Below are positions 18,402 to 62,477 of a DNA stretch of 64,000 nt, in pieces. The position numbers and the translations under genes were made by a program. The notes under the pieces were generated by a model. The model had not been told where the DNA came from. It made no database searches and was given only the letters and a program-made list of their open reading frames with translations. The DNA comes from a virus. Position 1 is the stretch's first letter; each line of letters begins with the position of its first letter. Location: IMG/VR virus record IMGVR_UViG_3300020421_001669, positions 62,001-126,000 of that record, one strand, 5' to 3'.

Positions 18402-20072
18402 ATGATTTTATTTGAAAAGATAAGATGGAAAAACTTTCTGTCTACAGGGAATAGTTTTACCGAAATAGAGTTTAATCGAAGTCCAAGTACATTGGTAGTT
18501 GGTGAGAATGGAAGTGGTAAATCCACAATGCTTGATGCTGTTTGTTTTGCATTGTTCAATAAACCATTTCGTAAGATTAGTAAGACACAACTAATCAACT
18601 CTATCAATAACAAAAAACTGATAGTTGAGATTGAGTTCAGAGTAGGACAGAAAGAATTCAAAGTCATTCGCGGTGTAAAACCAAGTGTGTTTGAATTGTA
18701 TTGTGACGGACAGATGTTAGACCAAGATGCTGCTGTAAGAGATACACAAAAATATCTTGAAGAAAGTATTCTCAAGATGAACTTTAAATCTTTTACACAG
18801 ATTGTTATACTGGGTAGTGCTTCATTTACACCATTCATGCAGTTGCCTACAGCATCTCGCCGTGAAATTATTGAAGACATCCTAGACATTGAAATATTTA
18901 CAACGATGAATCAAGTCTTGAGAGATAAGATTGCTGTTCTAAGGGATGAGATTAGAGATGTAGAAACAGAAGTAGAGGTAGCAAAGTCGAAGGCCAATGT
19001 TCAAAGAAAATATATTGACCAGTTGGAACGCGACAAAAAAATTAAAGTCGATAAAATTAAGGAGAAAATAGATGAAATCATCGAGGCGTCTACTGAACTT
19101 GAAATCAAACTTTCAGAGGCAACAGCAGAGAAGGAGAGTTATGATGATCCAAAGCAACGCAAACAAAAACTGGATACTCTCAAAGACAAACTCGACTCCA
19201 ATCTCAGAAAGGCAAGAAAAGAACTCGACTTCTACCACAACACAGAAGAGTGTCCAACCTGTAAACAAGGACTAACTCACGATTTCAAAGAAGAAAAACA
19301 AAAAGAAAAGTCTGATAGGATAGGTGAGTTAGAGGAAGGATTAGAAAATATGAATTCCGAATATGATTCTGTTTATGAGGCAATGGAAAAGTATGACTCT
19401 ATATCTACGGTAATACAAGAAACACAAAGTGAAATTATTACACAGGAAAGATATCGAAATAGAATGACGCTGGAATTGAATGAAGCAGAAACTAATGTTG
19501 CAGACATCGATGAAGAAAAAAGTAAACTTAAAGATTTAGCAGTTGACTTGACAACAAAAAATAAATTGAAAACTGATAAGGGTGAGGAACAACATTACAA
19601 TACTGCTGCTACTAGTCTGCTCAAGGATACAGGAATTAAGACTAGAGTTATAAGACAGTATCTACCAATCATCAATCAGTTGGTAAATAAATATTTGGCC
19701 GCGATGGATTTCTTTGTTCACTTTGACTTGGATGAAAAGTTCAATGAGACAATAAAGTCCAGACATAGAGACAAGTTTTCTTACTCTAGTTTTAGTGAGG
19801 GTGAGAAACAAAGAATAGACTTGGCATTACTATTCACATGGCGAACAATTGCTAAGATGAAGAACAGTGCCAGTACCAACCTGTTATTACTTGATGAAGT
19901 ATTTGACAGTTCCTTGGATAACAATGGTGTTGATTATGTAATGAACCTATTGAGTACCATAGGAGAGGAAACCAATGTGTTTGTGATTTCTCACAAAGGT
20001 GACCAGTTGTTTGATAAATTTAGAAATCAGATTAAATTTGAAAAGATTAGAAACTATAGTGTGATGTCATGA
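18402..20072 (+). CDS. 46: Recombination endonuclease subunit gp46 (Rad50/SbcC-like)
   Basis: SMC-like ATPase partner of gp47. 556 residues (T4: 560). Walker A GENGSGKST near residue 35, long charged coiled coil, zinc hook CPTCKQG near residue 283, signature motif FSEGEKQRIDLAL and Walker B LLLLDEVFD near the C-terminus. The long minus-strand frame opposite its first 480 bases is a shadow. The stop overlaps the deformylase start as ATGA. Confidence 0.96.
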   Translation: MILFEKIRWKNFLSTGNSFTEIEFNRSPSTLVVGENGSGKSTMLDAVCFALFNKPFRKISKTQLINSINNKKLIVEIEFRVGQKEFKVIRGVKPSVFELYCDGQMLDQDAAVRDTQKYLEESILKMNFKSFTQIVILGSASFTPFMQLPTASRREIIEDILDIEIFTTMNQVLRDKIAVLRDEIRDVETEVEVAKSKANVQRKYIDQLERDKKIKVDKIKEKIDEIIEASTELEIKLSEATAEKESYDDPKQRKQKLDTLKDKLDSNLRKARKELDFYHNTEECPTCKQGLTHDFKEEKQKEKSDRIGELEEGLENMNSEYDSVYEAMEKYDSISTVIQETQSEIITQERYRNRMTLELNEAETNVADIDEEKSKLKDLAVDLTTKNKLKTDKGEEQHYNTAATSLLKDTGIKTRVIRQYLPIINQLVNKYLAAMDFFVHFDLDEKFNETIKSRHRDKFSYSSFSEGEKQRIDLALLFTWRTIAKMKNSASTNLLLLDEVFDSSLDNNGVDYVMNLLSTIGEETNVFVISHKGDQLFDKFRNQIKFEKIRNYSVMS

Positions 20073-20602
20073 GTGAATTAGAATTATTACCATTAAACCA
20101 TCCAATGATGAAGGTTCCACCAAATGAGTTTGATTTTGAAAAAGAAGATGCAAAGGAACTCGCTGACCTAATTTGGAAGAGACAAAGAGAACTTGGTGGG
20201 GCAGGATTGTCAGCAAACCAAGTGGGACGCAATGCAAAAATGTTTACTATGGGTGTAGACAGGGGTGAAGACTATAACTATAAAAGAGTATTGTTTAATC
20301 CACAGTTAACCGCGTATAGTGAAGAGACCGATGTCATGGAAGAAGGGTGTCTCTCGGCGCCTGGCATCACGCTGATGGTGCGTAGACCTATCAAGTGTAC
20401 CATGAGTTACAAAAACGAAGACAATGAAATGGTGTTGGAAGAGTTCGATGGTCTGTGGGCCAGAGTTGCATTACACGAGTATGACCACATGTTAGGTCAA
20501 AACTTTACTCAAAGAGTATCTAAAATTAAATTGGACAGAGCCATAAAAAAGGCAAAAAAATTCCACAAAAAATTAAAACGAGCTATTGAAAATAATAAAT
20601 AG
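20069..20602 (+). CDS. def: Peptide deformylase
   Basis: Removes formyl groups from nascent proteins. 177 residues. All three motifs are present: GLSANQVG (motif 1), EGCLSAPG with the metal-binding Cys (about residue 94), and HEYDHMLG (HExDH, about residues 136-140). Phage deformylases are known from marine cyanophages, where they are thought to help turnover of host photosystem proteins; here no photosystem gene is seen, so the benefit is open. Basic Lys-rich C-terminus. Confidence 0.95.
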   Translation: MSELELLPLNHPMMKVPPNEFDFEKEDAKELADLIWKRQRELGGAGLSANQVGRNAKMFTMGVDRGEDYNYKRVLFNPQLTAYSEETDVMEEGCLSAPGITLMVRRPIKCTMSYKNEDNEMVLEEFDGLWARVALHEYDHMLGQNFTQRVSKIKLDRAIKKAKKFHKKLKRAIENNK

Positions 20603-20629: not shown

Positions 20630-21106
20630 ATGGCCTATAGTAAGGAAGTAGTAAAAAGGTTTGAAGAAGTAACCAATAATCCACAAGCACATGGCGTAGG
20701 TAGATTTGACCCTAACGACCCACATGTTGCTACAGGACTCACTGGAGCGCCTGCCTGTGGTGATGTTATGAAGTTAGATTTAAAACTTGACCCAGAAACA
20801 GATGAAATTTTAGATGTCAAGTTTAAAACATATGGATGTGGTAGTGCTATTGCTAGTTCTAGTATGTTTGTTGAAATGCTAACAGGACTTACAATCCAAC
20901 AGGCAAAAGAAATAAAGGATAAAGATATTGCGGATGCACTTGAATTACCACCCATTAAAATACATTGTTCTGTATTAGCAGAAGATAGTATTAAAAGAGC
21001 TATTCAAGATTGGGAAGAAAAGAAAGCAGGCCGTAACTCTACTTGGTTAGAGAAAATGGGTGCTAAACCTAGAGAGGGAGAAAAAATTGCGGATAACATT
21101 AACTGA
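20630..21106 (+). CDS. iscU: IscU/NifU-type Fe-S cluster scaffold
   Basis: Scaffold on which [Fe-S] clusters are built. 158 residues. All three ligand cysteines are present: C43 (GAPACGDVMKL), C70 (YGCGSAIASSS) and C113 (IHCSVLAEDSI); an Asp follows C43 as in IscU. The HscA-recognition LPPVK motif appears as LPPIKI before C113. It overlaps the IscA-type gene by 20 bases, so the two form a small Fe-S module within the gp46-def operon. Confidence 0.93.
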   Translation: MAYSKEVVKRFEEVTNNPQAHGVGRFDPNDPHVATGLTGAPACGDVMKLDLKLDPETDEILDVKFKTYGCGSAIASSSMFVEMLTGLTIQQAKEIKDKDIADALELPPIKIHCSVLAEDSIKRAIQDWEEKKAGRNSTWLEKMGAKPREGEKIADNIN

Positions 21107-21410
21107 AGATGCTAAGAAATATTGGACAAGACTTTTAGATGAGAAACCTAGTGCAAAGTATGTACGGTTGGGCGTCAAAGGTGGCGGCTGTGCCGGATTC
21201 TCATATACATGGGACTATACTGATAATTCTGATCGTGGTGTTTTAATTGATGATATCTTAGTTGTAGATGACTACGCGGAAATGTTCTTGCATGGTAGTG
21301 AGATAGTATTTGAAAAAGACCTAGGCGGGTCTCACATTCAAGTAACCAATCCAAATGAAGTAAGTGCCTGTGGTTGTGGAGAGAGTATACAATTCTCAAC
21401 CGCAGTATAG
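21087..21410 (+). CDS. iscA: IscA/ErpA-type Fe-S carrier (HesB family)
   Basis: A-type carrier that passes clusters to apo-enzymes. I start at TTG 21087, since AGGGAG lies 6 bases before it and RITLTEDAKKYW is the usual IscA N-terminus; this gives 107 residues. Ligand cysteines: C35 (GGGCAGFSY), C95 and C97 (ACGCGES), with spacing as in bacterial IscA. Candidate clients in this phage are the radical-SAM protein at 29951 and host Fe-S enzymes. Confidence 0.93.
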   Translation: MRITLTEDAKKYWTRLLDEKPSAKYVRLGVKGGGCAGFSYTWDYTDNSDRGVLIDDILVVDDYAEMFLHGSEIVFEKDLGGSHIQVTNPNEVSACGCGESIQFSTAV

Positions 21411-45798: not shown

Positions 45799-47052
45799 AT
45801 GGTCGGATTTTTATCATATCTAAACGAAGATGCACAGGGGAAAAACCTACATCTTGAACACCTAGAAGACGAAATTCTTAATTTCGGAATAGGTGGAGCT
45901 CGTGGTGCAATTAATTTCCTACAGTCATTAAGAGATATGCTGTCGGGAAGTTCTCGTTCATCTGTAAACATGACAGTCAAGTGGGATGGCGCACCCGCTA
46001 TATTTGCTGGTATAGACCCCAGTGATGGTAAATTCTTTGTTGCTAAGAAAGGTGTATTCAACAAGACACCACTATTATATAAGTCCACGCAAGAGATAAA
46101 CAAAGATAGTAAATTACCACAAGCACTAAAACCCGCCTTTATAATCGCATTACAAGAATTTAGTAAACTCGGAATCAAGGGTGTATTACAGGGTGACTTA
46201 ATGTTCACTTCTGGTTCACTTGAGTCCGAGACCATTGATGGTGAAAGATACACCACATTCCAACCAAATACAATAGTCTATGCTGTTCCTAAAATGTCAG
46301 AACTGGAACAGAAAATCAAAGCGGCTAAAATTGGTGTGGTATGGCACACTACATATACTGGTAACACACTAGAGAGTATGAAGGCATCTTTTGGTGTAAA
46401 CATTAGTGGTCTCAGAAAATCAAAAAATGTCTGGATGGATGATGCTAGTTATAGAGATACTAGTGGAACTTCTACATTCACAAAAGCAGAAACCGCCGCT
46501 GTAACCACGAAGTTGGCTAACTGTGGTAGGATATTTCAGAAAATAAATTCAGCACAATTAAGCAGTTTCTTAAAATTTCAAGCTGGGTTTACGGGCAAAA
46601 TGGTTGGCGCCAACATCAAAACATATAACAATTCAAAAGTAAAAGTTGGTGCGAAGATATCAAATGTCGCTGGACATGTGTCTGGATATGCAAAATGGGT
46701 AGAAGACAAATTTGATTCAGAGATAAATAAGTTAAAGACGGAGAAATCTAAAAGTCAACTAGAAAAAAGAAAGACTGAAACTCTAAGAGAACTATCTAAG
46801 TATAGTGTTCTTCTTACAAATGTCATCAATTTTCAGAACTCTATGGTAGAGGCGAAAATGATAATCGTTAGTAAATTAAATAGAGTAAAACAGTTAATGG
46901 ATACCTTTGTTAGAACCAAACAGGGATTTAAAGTTACAAATCCAGAAGGATATGTTGCTATAGATAGGGTTTCTGGTAACGCGGTCAAACTAGTAGACAG
47001 AATGGAATTCAGTTATAATAATTTTACAGCAATTAAGGCGTGGGATAGATGA
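45799..47052 (+). CDS. Putative nucleotidyltransferase/ligase-like late protein
   Basis: 417 residues from ATG 45799 (MVGFLSYLNED); an upstream in-frame GTG at 45766 would leave no room for a leader. K61 in NMTVKWDGAPAIF is a KxDG motif I of DNA/RNA ligases and capping enzymes; GVLQGDLMF (motif III-like), IVYAVP (IIIa-like), PEGYVAI near 383 (motif IV, EGxV) and AVKLVDR near 397 (motif V) are in the right order. An insertion of about 130 coiled-coil residues separates III and IV. I know related sequences only as uncharacterised phage proteins, so activity is inference. Confidence 0.55.
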   Translation: MVGFLSYLNEDAQGKNLHLEHLEDEILNFGIGGARGAINFLQSLRDMLSGSSRSSVNMTVKWDGAPAIFAGIDPSDGKFFVAKKGVFNKTPLLYKSTQEINKDSKLPQALKPAFIIALQEFSKLGIKGVLQGDLMFTSGSLESETIDGERYTTFQPNTIVYAVPKMSELEQKIKAAKIGVVWHTTYTGNTLESMKASFGVNISGLRKSKNVWMDDASYRDTSGTSTFTKAETAAVTTKLANCGRIFQKINSAQLSSFLKFQAGFTGKMVGANIKTYNNSKVKVGAKISNVAGHVSGYAKWVEDKFDSEINKLKTEKSKSQLEKRKTETLRELSKYSVLLTNVINFQNSMVEAKMIIVSKLNRVKQLMDTFVRTKQGFKVTNPEGYVAIDRVSGNAVKLVDRMEFSYNNFTAIKAWDR

Positions 47053-52252: not shown

Positions 52253-52260
52253 TATAAATA
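52253..52260 (+). promoter_or_regulatory. T4-type late promoter box before 642-residue protein
   Basis: TATAAATA 35 bases before the ATG at 52295; leader with TTGGAG. Confidence 0.7.
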
Positions 52261-54256: not shown

Positions 54257-54847
54257 ATGAGTGGATGGGGAGCAACTGATTCAGACGAATCAAAACCAAA
54301 GTGGTTAACAGCAGACCAAAAAGAAGATGTCTTTGCTAACTCTAGTGGTTGGGTTGTAAAAGCTGGGTCAACTATGACAGGAAATGGCAATACAAGTGCC
54401 ACTCCAGAAGTTTTAGTTGCACTTGGTTCACTTGCGACTTCACTAGGACAAGCAACTATTGATGCTGTAGATTTTGTAAGCACAGCGTTTGATGTTTCAG
54501 ACGGAGGCGTAATTTCAGCTGAAGTCAGTTACAACGAACAAGTAACCGTAGCAACAGCATTCCCGCTGTTAGTTTTAACAAACAACCAAGCGGGTGGTGG
54601 TTCAGCAGCTAGTGTTACACTAACAATGGATGGAACTTTACCAGTAACTTCTGATAAACTTACATTTAGTGTTACAATAGGTGCTGGTGGTTCAACAATT
54701 GTTGCAGACGATGTACTTTCAATTGGAGCACAATCACTTAACCTCAACGGCGGTACAATCGTTGACACAATCGGTGGTGGAAATGCAGAAAGAGCAATCA
54801 CAGCTGCACAGGGAACTGCTGGTGGAACACTAACCGCAACTGCATAA
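54257..54847 (+). CDS. Virion structural protein (MSGWGATDSDESKP family)
   Basis: 196 residues. The opening SGWGATDSDESKPKWLTADQ belongs to a family I recall in virions of marine T4-like phages. The rest is beta-rich with Gly/Ala/Thr/Val (VTLTMDGTLPVTSDKLTFSV), typical of a surface or decoration domain. AGGAG precedes the ATG, and the stop codon overlaps the ribosome site of the 16-residue peptide gene. Confidence 0.7.
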   Translation: MSGWGATDSDESKPKWLTADQKEDVFANSSGWVVKAGSTMTGNGNTSATPEVLVALGSLATSLGQATIDAVDFVSTAFDVSDGGVISAEVSYNEQVTVATAFPLLVLTNNQAGGGSAASVTLTMDGTLPVTSDKLTFSVTIGAGGSTIVADDVLSIGAQSLNLNGGTIVDTIGGGNAERAITAAQGTAGGTLTATA

Positions 54848-54858
54848 GGAGATAAAGC

Positions 54859-54909
54859 ATGTGTAAATGTTGCAAGTGTTGTACATGTACATGCCCAGAG
54901 TGTAACTAA
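54859..54909 (+). CDS. 16-residue cysteine-rich peptide
   Basis: Encodes MCKCCKCCTCTCPECN: 8 Cys in 16 residues in CxCC/CxC patterns as in metallothioneins. ATG lies 7 bases after AAGGAG (54846-54851), and its stop overlaps the next start as TAATG, the same coupling used by genuine genes here. Could bind zinc or copper, or act as a knot or crosslink in the virion. The size is far below usual gene callers. Real translation is inferred from the ribosome site and coupling. Confidence 0.6.
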   Translation: MCKCCKCCTCTCPECN

Positions 54910-55355
54910 TGGCTGATAGTAAACTTTCAGAATTAACGGCAGCTACATCTGTAGCTGCCGCTGACACCTTTTATCTAGTACAAAGTTCTACTAGTAAAGG
55001 TGTGACAGCTGCAAATCTATTCGCTGATGTGGCGACACCTGTATCTTTTTCAGATAAGGTATCAATCGCGGATGTGGATACAGTAACAGGGCCAGGCGCA
55101 GTCTCAGTCGCAACGAATGTGACTAGATTGACAAACCCAGGCACAGGTGGTACACTAACCATTGGTGCTGGTACAGAAGGTCAATTGAAAATTATTGTTA
55201 TGGATGGCAATTCTAGTGCGGTAACACTGACACTAGATGATTCAGACTTGGGTCACGACACCATTACATTCAATAATGCTGGTGATACGGCAACCCTCAT
55301 ATATACTAATAGTAAATGGTGGATGATAGGGGGAACTGCTACAGTTGCCAATTAG
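54909..55355 (+). CDS. Tail-fibre-type structural protein
   Basis: 148 residues. The N-terminus KLSELTAATSVAAADTFYLV with SSTSKGVTAANLF is a module common at the start of fibre and appendage proteins. The C-terminal half is a small beta domain (LTIGAGTEGQLKIIVMDG to SKWWMIGGTA) seen as a fibre repeat/cap. Translationally coupled to the Cys-rich peptide upstream. Confidence 0.75.
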   Translation: MADSKLSELTAATSVAAADTFYLVQSSTSKGVTAANLFADVATPVSFSDKVSIADVDTVTGPGAVSVATNVTRLTNPGTGGTLTIGAGTEGQLKIIVMDGNSSAVTLTLDDSDLGHDTITFNNAGDTATLIYTNSKWWMIGGTATVAN

Positions 55356-60678: not shown

Positions 60679-62477
60679 TGGCGACAGAAGATTATTTAGG
60701 AATTAAAATAGACAGGGAGAGAGACCAGTTATTCGATAAGTTGGGTATTCAGCGTCTACAAGAAAGTTACATGAAAGAGGAAGAAGATAGTCCACAACAG
60801 AGGTTTGCTTTTGTGAGCAAGTCATTTGCTTCAAATGATGAACACGCACAGAGGTTATACGACTATTCTAGTAAACACTGGTTGTCTTACTCTACACCTA
60901 TCCTATCATTTGGTAGGTCTAATAAGGGACTACCTATTTCATGTTTTTTAAATTACATTAACGATACAGCGGAGGGATTAGTTGAAAATCTATCAGAAAC
61001 AAATTGGCTTAGTATGCTTGGGGGCGGTGTTGGTATTGGGTTTGGTATCCGAGCTAGCGATGATAAGTCTACTGGCGTCTTGCCACATCTCAAAACCTAT
61101 GACTCAAGTTCACTCGCCTATAGACAGGGTAAGACACGAAGGGGTAGTTATGCCGCTTACCTCGACATTAGTCACCCCGATATTACAATGTTTCTCGAAA
61201 TGCGTAAACCAACAGGAGACCAAAACCTCAGATGTCTAAATCTACATCACGGTATTAATATCAGTGATAGGTTTATGCAACTAATTGAGAAGTGCATGTC
61301 AGACCCAGATGCTGATGATAGGTGGAATCTAACAGACCCACACACAGGGGAAGTGCGAGATACAGTATCAGCGAAAGCATTGTGGCAGAAAATACTAGAA
61401 ATGAGAATGGAGACAGGAGAACCTTATTTACATTTTGTTGATGCAAGTAATCGTGGATTGCCAGAGTGGTTAAAAGAGAAGGGATTAAAAATTAATCAGT
61501 CTAATCTTTGTTCAGAGATTATATTACCAACCAATGAAAACAGAACTGCTGTTTGTTGTTTATCATCTGTGAACCTAGAACACTATGACGCATGGTCAAA
61601 GAGTACCACATTCTTGAGAGATGTGGCAGAGATGTTAGATAATGTATTACAGTATTTTATTGACAACGCACCAGATACAGTATCAAGAGCAGTATTTTCA
61701 GCGAAACAGGAAAGAAGTATTGGGATTGGTGCATTAGGATTTCATGCATATCTCCAGAAAAACAGTATACCATTTGAAGGATTTATGGCGAAGTCAACAA
61801 ATATCAGAATGTTCAAACTAATAAGGGGAAAACTAGATGAAGCAAACTTGGACTTGGGTAAAGAAAGAGGGGAAGCTATTGATGCGAAGGGGACAGGAAG
61901 AAGATTTAGTCATGTTATGGCTATCGCTCCCAATGCTAGTAGCTCTATTATTATGGGAAACACCTCGCCGTCTATTGAACCGTATCGTGCAAACGCTTAC
62001 AGGCAGGACACATTATCTGGAGCGTATCTCAATAAGAATAAGCACTTGGATATTATTATTAAAGATAAATGCGAGACTAACAAAAGACTCGATTATGACA
62101 AAATTTGGTCATCGATAATTGCCAACGATGGGTCAGTACAACATGTAACATGTCTGGATGATAAAGAAAAAGAAATCTACAAGACTGCCATGGAGATTGA
62201 CCAACGATGGGTAGTAGAACATGCATCTACTAGACAAGAGTGGATTGACCAAGCACAGTCTGTTAATTTATTTTTCAGACCAGATGTTAATATTAAATAT
62301 TTACACGCGATACATTATCTAGCATGGAAACAAGGGATGAAGACTCTATACTATTGTAGGTCAGAAAAACTTGGTAAAGCAGATAAGGTCTCTAAAAGAA
62401 TTGAAAGGGAAGCAATAAAAGAGATTGATTTTCAGAGTATGATTGATGGTGAAAATTGTGTTGCATGTGAAGGATGA
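60678..62477 (+). CDS. nrdA: Ribonucleotide reductase alpha subunit
   Basis: Class I RNR large subunit. 599 residues, about 160 shorter than E. coli NrdA; the N-terminal ATP-cone is missing, so dATP feedback control is probably lost. Seen: ISCFLNYI (redox Cys), NLCSEI (Asn, thiyl Cys, Glu of the active site), AVCCLSSVNL (second redox Cys), IAPNASSS, TLYYCRS (radical-transfer Tyr pair), C-terminal CVACEG for reduction by glutaredoxin. Overlaps the QueC-like gene by about 32 bases. Confidence 0.95.
   Translation: MATEDYLGIKIDRERDQLFDKLGIQRLQESYMKEEEDSPQQRFAFVSKSFASNDEHAQRLYDYSSKHWLSYSTPILSFGRSNKGLPISCFLNYINDTAEGLVENLSETNWLSMLGGGVGIGFGIRASDDKSTGVLPHLKTYDSSSLAYRQGKTRRGSYAAYLDISHPDITMFLEMRKPTGDQNLRCLNLHHGINISDRFMQLIEKCMSDPDADDRWNLTDPHTGEVRDTVSAKALWQKILEMRMETGEPYLHFVDASNRGLPEWLKEKGLKINQSNLCSEIILPTNENRTAVCCLSSVNLEHYDAWSKSTTFLRDVAEMLDNVLQYFIDNAPDTVSRAVFSAKQERSIGIGALGFHAYLQKNSIPFEGFMAKSTNIRMFKLIRGKLDEANLDLGKERGEAIDAKGTGRRFSHVMAIAPNASSSIIMGNTSPSIEPYRANAYRQDTLSGAYLNKNKHLDIIIKDKCETNKRLDYDKIWSSIIANDGSVQHVTCLDDKEKEIYKTAMEIDQRWVVEHASTRQEWIDQAQSVNLFFRPDVNIKYLHAIHYLAWKQGMKTLYYCRSEKLGKADKVSKRIEREAIKEIDFQSMIDGENCVACEG

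Follow-up and report, generated by a model that had tools for sequence, protein, structure and literature searches.

Mycobacteria have short Cys-rich leader ORFs for Cys-responsive leader peptides, located just upstream of another gene and overlapping it. Among the metallothioneins, the 26-residue protein of Neurospora crassa was once considered the shortest (PMC4755600). IscU and ATC genes have been reported as auxiliary genes carried by marine phages (PMC5332604, PMC9038755), in passages that make no mention of a micropeptide. The gene analyzed here encodes MCKCCKCCTCTCPECN, a peptide of 16 amino acids of which eight are Cys. No description of such phage peptides was found in the open-access literature searched.

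The phage peptides resemble metallothioneins in composition but differ in size, spacing, and genomic setting. They share with metallothioneins, especially the Cu-thionein of N. crassa, a predominance of Cys, CxC motifs, hydrophilic spacers, and very short length, and the class I core described below is without aromatic residues. The micropeptide of this virus likewise has the high Cys content in CxC and CC arrangements, and the scarcity of aromatics, that are expected of a metallothionein. Unlike metallothioneins, the phage peptides are mostly 13 to 24 residues long, have the spacing CxCCxCCxCxC or CxCxxCxCxxCxC, are carried by viruses, and occur near Fe-S genes; their metal binding is predicted by analogy. 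They match no Pfam, NCBIfam, or PHROG model, and no solved chain in the PDB sequences matches a 22-residue form (from L104), although such very short queries have low power. The first-pass annotation expected standard gene callers to miss a gene of this size, and it is absent from every family library. The IscU and ATC auxiliary genes occur in the same viruses and often in the same gene string as the micropeptides, which have no homology to IscU, ATC, or Nfu. Like the mycobacterial leaders, the phage gene is a short Cys-rich ORF that lies just upstream of another gene and overlaps it, but it has no constant regulated gene, its spacing and non-Cys residues are conserved, and it is a single copy that changes location.

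The micropeptide gene has the signals of a translated gene and lies in a string that may be expressed late. The window is the 64,000-nt stretch at positions 62,001 to 126,000 of IMG/VR record IMGVR_UViG_3300020421_001669, a virus record of 161 kb (Table 1). Its nearest annotated relatives, identified through the gene upstream of the micropeptide, are marine T4-like Kyanoviridae (Melnitz, HTVC008M, and cyanophages). The frame, its eight Cys, the spacing of the AAGGAG, and the TAATG overlap are all exactly as first described. The AAGGAG overlaps the stop codon of the upstream gene and is present in every occupied near relative, and the last A of the micropeptide stop codon TAA (54907-54909) is the first base of the next ATG. 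The gene had been placed between virion genes. This is partly supported on the upstream side, where homologues in cyanophages, HTVC008M, and Melnitz carry the annotation S-layer domain protein, but the homologues of the downstream protein, in Melnitz phages, are all hypothetical. Motifs of the TATAAATA late type occur 12 times on the + strand of the window and never on the - strand, and no terminator-like site was found on the + strand between the motif at 52253 and the micropeptide, whose late expression is suggested by that motif. A ten-pair hairpin (54936-54960) falls within the early part of the gene for the 148-aa protein and accounts for much of the region's low fold energy.

Table 1. 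Positions in the window of the micropeptide gene, its signals and neighbours, and other features discussed
Feature	Position	Strand	Basis or remark
Cys-rich micropeptide MCKCCKCCTCTCPECN, core CxCCxCCxCxCxxC (further peptide sequence quoted alongside: MCKCKDCKCNPCECN)	54859..54909	+	Translation, conservation, family
Shine-Dalgarno AAGGAG of micropeptide, 7 nt spacer to ATG	54846..54851	+	Sequence
196-aa protein, phrog_11617 (function unknown)	54257..54847	+	Upstream neighbour of micropeptide
148-aa protein, function unknown, start overlapping micropeptide stop, without good SD of its own	54909..55355	+	
T4-type late promoter motif TATAAATA	52253..52260	+	Precedes the gene string containing the micropeptide
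ATGA junction DUF6267 / cytidylyltransferase	47049..47052	+	Micropeptide slot in several relatives; empty in window
Phage IscU (NifU_N, PF01592)	20630..21106	+	Domain match
Phage A-type Fe-S carrier, IscA (PF01521)	21060..21410	+	Domain match

The Cys codons of the micropeptide are under purifying selection. Fifteen near relatives, collected through the downstream gene, have an intact micropeptide, one of them truncated by the end of its contig. Core differences among the near relatives of the window group are silent only, including all four variable core codons. One near relative has a longer start (MKTTTSK-), and another retains the micropeptide behind a different upstream gene. Further cases were gathered through neighbouring cytidylyltransferase and PD-(D/E)XK nuclease genes, without use of Cys content. 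Over these three sets of loci, each assembled from flanking genes alone, nine Cys codon columns alternate between TGT and TGC, and none shows replacement. A short frame missing from this gap in relatives, or broken in near ones, would have refuted the first-pass annotation; the near relatives pass this check, with silent core changes, but the gap is empty in more distant relatives.

Cys-rich short ORFs are also far more frequent than controls. In 216 loci collected by neighbouring proteins (1.03 Mb), 48 ORFs of 8 to 40 aa that are preceded by a ribosome binding site (RBS) have at least 36% Cys, and they favor the coding strand 48:0. When other residues take the place of Cys, the same loci yield at most 19 ORFs (for Leu), and three Markov-1 simulations of these loci yield no Cys-rich RBS-led ORFs. 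Across the whole viral contig collection the pattern of RBS, ATG, and Cys occurs in at least 119 contigs, as against 6 for a control pattern with TAY for TGY. Many raw matches were antisense repeats of Thr/Ala/Gln-rich genes, which were filtered out by requiring an RBS and a short frame. The micropeptide thus appears to be a functional phage micro-gene with a predicted translation product, rather than a product of chance.

The micropeptide belongs to a large group of very small metallothionein-like peptides, not listed before, which seem to be largely confined to viruses. Viral contigs were scanned for the class I spacing CxCCxCCxCxC together with a ribosome site and ATG, and the matches listed include at least about 50 distinct peptides, mostly of 13 to 24 aa. 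The CxCCxCCxCxC is constant and the tails vary (CC, CCG, ExCC, PECN), and most peptides have eight or nine Cys. The core spacers are K, E, D, N, S, T, G, A, and Q with single P, I, and R and a few C; F, W, and Y are absent. The second spacing was scanned because MCKCESCKCDPCTCSN sits in a class I slot in L393-L395. The two classes interchange in this one slot, which holds CxCCxCC forms in other loci. Class II (CxCxxCxCxxCxC) is found as an in-frame RBS-led ORF in at least 103 contigs, with at least about 75 distinct peptides, mostly of 14 to 40 aa; a few of these rows are unconvincing.

In the sampled cellular genomes the group is nearly missing. When 257 Gb of bacterial and archaeal genomes was scanned with the strict class I pattern, two contigs matched, and the genes of both are phage-like. 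The 369 genomes of one bacterial class gave one unconvincing match per pattern besides the known phage-like contig. Searches with 22- and 38-aa members by tblastn found no match in phage records, but this method is insensitive here because of the low-complexity filter and the short length. The CxCCxCCxC frame is absent from ten named marine T4-like phages searched whole (HTVC008M, Melnitz, S-SSM7, P-SSM7, and others). The sole match to CxCCxCCxC, in P-SSM7, was rejected for an in-frame TAG.

The gene is present as one copy per genome and is independent of its neighbours. Exactly one copy is found in each of the 27 large class I carriers searched whole (27/27), while the control pattern gives none. 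In relatives the gene lies in front of the cytidylyltransferase, between the PhoH and nuclease genes, downstream of Nfu, next to IscU on either side, or 5' of tmRNA. In L071 and L072 the site occupied in the window is empty, and an AAGGAG there directly provides the ribosome site of the 148-aa gene. The upstream gene of L071, a close relative, is 81% identical to that of the window, and the same contig encodes MQKKCKCCECCSCTCCG between Nfu and the cytidylyltransferase, roughly 8.5 kb upstream of the empty site. A single copy with shifting neighbours suggests that the product acts in trans in the cell and is not a partner of the two flanking genes.

Several other neighbours were observed. A tmRNA lies directly 3' of the micropeptide in the same orientation in L104 (736-1022), L248 (2978-3286), L254 (646-980), and L263 (4101-4440). 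The arrangement looks similar by eye in L115, L152, L289, and L290, with no ARAGORN call in L115 and L152. An Hsp20 small heat-shock gene is the neighbour on the upstream side in 11 class II loci (L427, L431, L432, L460, L489, L490, L491, L498, L505, L513, and L516). In L471 and L535 the class II peptide is preceded by a His-rich membrane protein that is TauE/metal-transporter-like, with a Pfam match below the cut-off. The extreme member MKNQKKCECCCCCACCCNCACHKE (L243, about 1200-1280) lies some 30 nt downstream of a phage gene for a cysteine-synthase-type PLP enzyme (PF00291). In the window, a peptide-deformylase-like ORF (20069-20602), recognized by eye, lies directly 5' of the phage genes for IscU and the A-type carrier.

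As a group, the micropeptides cluster with Fe-S assembly genes. The class I neighbours include Nfu (with NifU and Fe-S_biosyn domains), the A-type carrier, and IscU. Five of the 11 class I carriers that have an Fe-S gene have the peptide within 1.7 kb of it (p ~4e-5, assuming random placement and calculated post hoc). The class II sample was gathered later, by pattern alone, from the matches listed. IscU, ATC, or Nfu is found within 1.7 kb in 29 of 101 class II loci and in 0 of 88 control loci (p ~1e-9 by locus); the controls are pattern-collected loci without a genuine peptide, unmatched for virus type or habitat. All of the class II Fe-S neighbours are on the same strand as the peptide (45/45). 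In L518 and L439 the peptide starts at the very end of iscU, and some peptides overlap the iscU end. With strict dereplication the adjacency is weaker, at 4 of 26 class II groups versus 0 of 54 (p = 0.009) and 2 of 20 for class I (p = 0.07); strict DNA dereplication is conservative because the groups chain through the Fe-S genes themselves. The mere presence of Fe-S genes was rejected as a predictor of the micropeptide, since it shows no clear enrichment (11/27 carriers versus 8/28 non-carriers); adjacency alone is enriched. The linkage is a property of the group and not of the window copy, which is 34 kb from the phage IscU and IscA genes. The IscU of L182, which is 78% identical to that of the window, has a Cys-rich micropeptide directly upstream.

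These properties favor, with moderate confidence, a micro-metallothionein of the infected cell, with a probable role in handling metal or thiol during Fe-S assembly. The 16-residue peptide would be soluble and made inside the infected cell, where its clustered Cys thiolates would bind metal ions as in metallothioneins. Cytosolic metal binding is suggested by analogy with Cu-thionein, and the composition and fixed spacing would suit a polynuclear metal-thiolate cluster. Metal binding is the most plausible chemistry for the micropeptide. The peptide may hold or buffer thiol-bound metal (putatively Fe, Cu(I), or Zn) and so support or protect the Fe-S assembly that is run in many such phages by phage IscU, A-type carrier, or Nfu. 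The gene linkage suggests that the likeliest use is supply of metal or thiol to phage-directed Fe-S assembly, or its protection. The distance of the window copy from iscU and iscA, and its position in a putative late string, count against an Fe-S role.

The strongest rival is that the peptide serves phage Fe-S assembly as a sulfur or persulfide carrier or as a cysteine or thiol reservoir, and not as a metal store. Adjacency to IscU, ATC, and Nfu agrees with this idea, as does the cysteine-synthase-type enzyme before the L243 member. It is unlikely; strict CxC and CC spacing over many sequences is better suited to multidentate metal coordination than to single-thiol chemistry. Rather improbable is a redox or metal weapon that deprives the host of metal or thiols, or defeats a metal- or ROS-based host defence, with the Fe-S genes as mere companions. 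A single accessory gene with shifting position and patchy presence is typical of host-interaction genes, and some neighbours are of the Hsp20 or AhpC/TSA type, but this proposal is at odds with the specific same-strand clustering with Fe-S assembly genes.

The first-pass annotation proposed metal binding or disulfide crosslinking within the particle, and a virion component of this kind is now very unlikely. It would fit the gene string of the window clade, which follows the TATAAATA late motif and places the peptide between S-layer-type and fibre-type genes. Its place in a structural string is not constant across relatives: other carriers have the copy beside Nfu, IscU, PhoH/nuclease, tmRNA, and other unrelated genes, and the homologous gap is empty in relatives that have the same two flanking genes. 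The particle role is unsupported.

Regulation in cis by a leader peptide is highly improbable. In this view, scarcity of Cys-tRNA would stall ribosomes on the Cys codons and so control the overlapping downstream gene, as the TAATG coupling, the lack of an SD dedicated to the 148-aa gene, and the mycobacterial precedent might suggest. A leader would be expected at a conserved place in front of a single regulated gene or operon, but almost every context has a different downstream gene, and certain copies are followed by tmRNA or by a gene hundreds of nucleotides away. The non-Cys residues and exact spacing are conserved as well. Neither an Rfam match nor a + strand terminator-like site is found in the near string, and the fold z-score of -2.84 (for one window sequence) rests largely on the hairpin inside the downstream gene. 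A chance ORF or repeat artefact, which the very short length and the antisense repeats among some pattern matches elsewhere might suggest, is refuted by the silent-only change, the RBS, the strand bias, and the Tyr control, and its likelihood is negligible.

A broader form of the micro-metallothionein reading is offered tentatively. A large class of phage Cys-cluster peptides of 13 to 40 residues, in two interchangeable spacing types, overlooked until now and near-absent from the sampled cellular genomes, could be a dedicated small component of virus-directed Fe-S assembly, acting as metal donor, thiolate carrier, or protector. They might then represent a novel type of Fe-S assembly factor, and no metallothionein-like protein encoded by a gene would be smaller. 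The finding would show that viruses encode metallothionein-like peptides well below the 26 residues once held to be minimal. Peptides of such length tend to escape gene callers and family libraries. The finding also provides a simple, testable rule for recognizing these genes in sequence, and a direct way to test why marine phages have IscU and IscA. The micropeptides may be a new component in phage control of Fe-S clusters in the metal-poor ocean.
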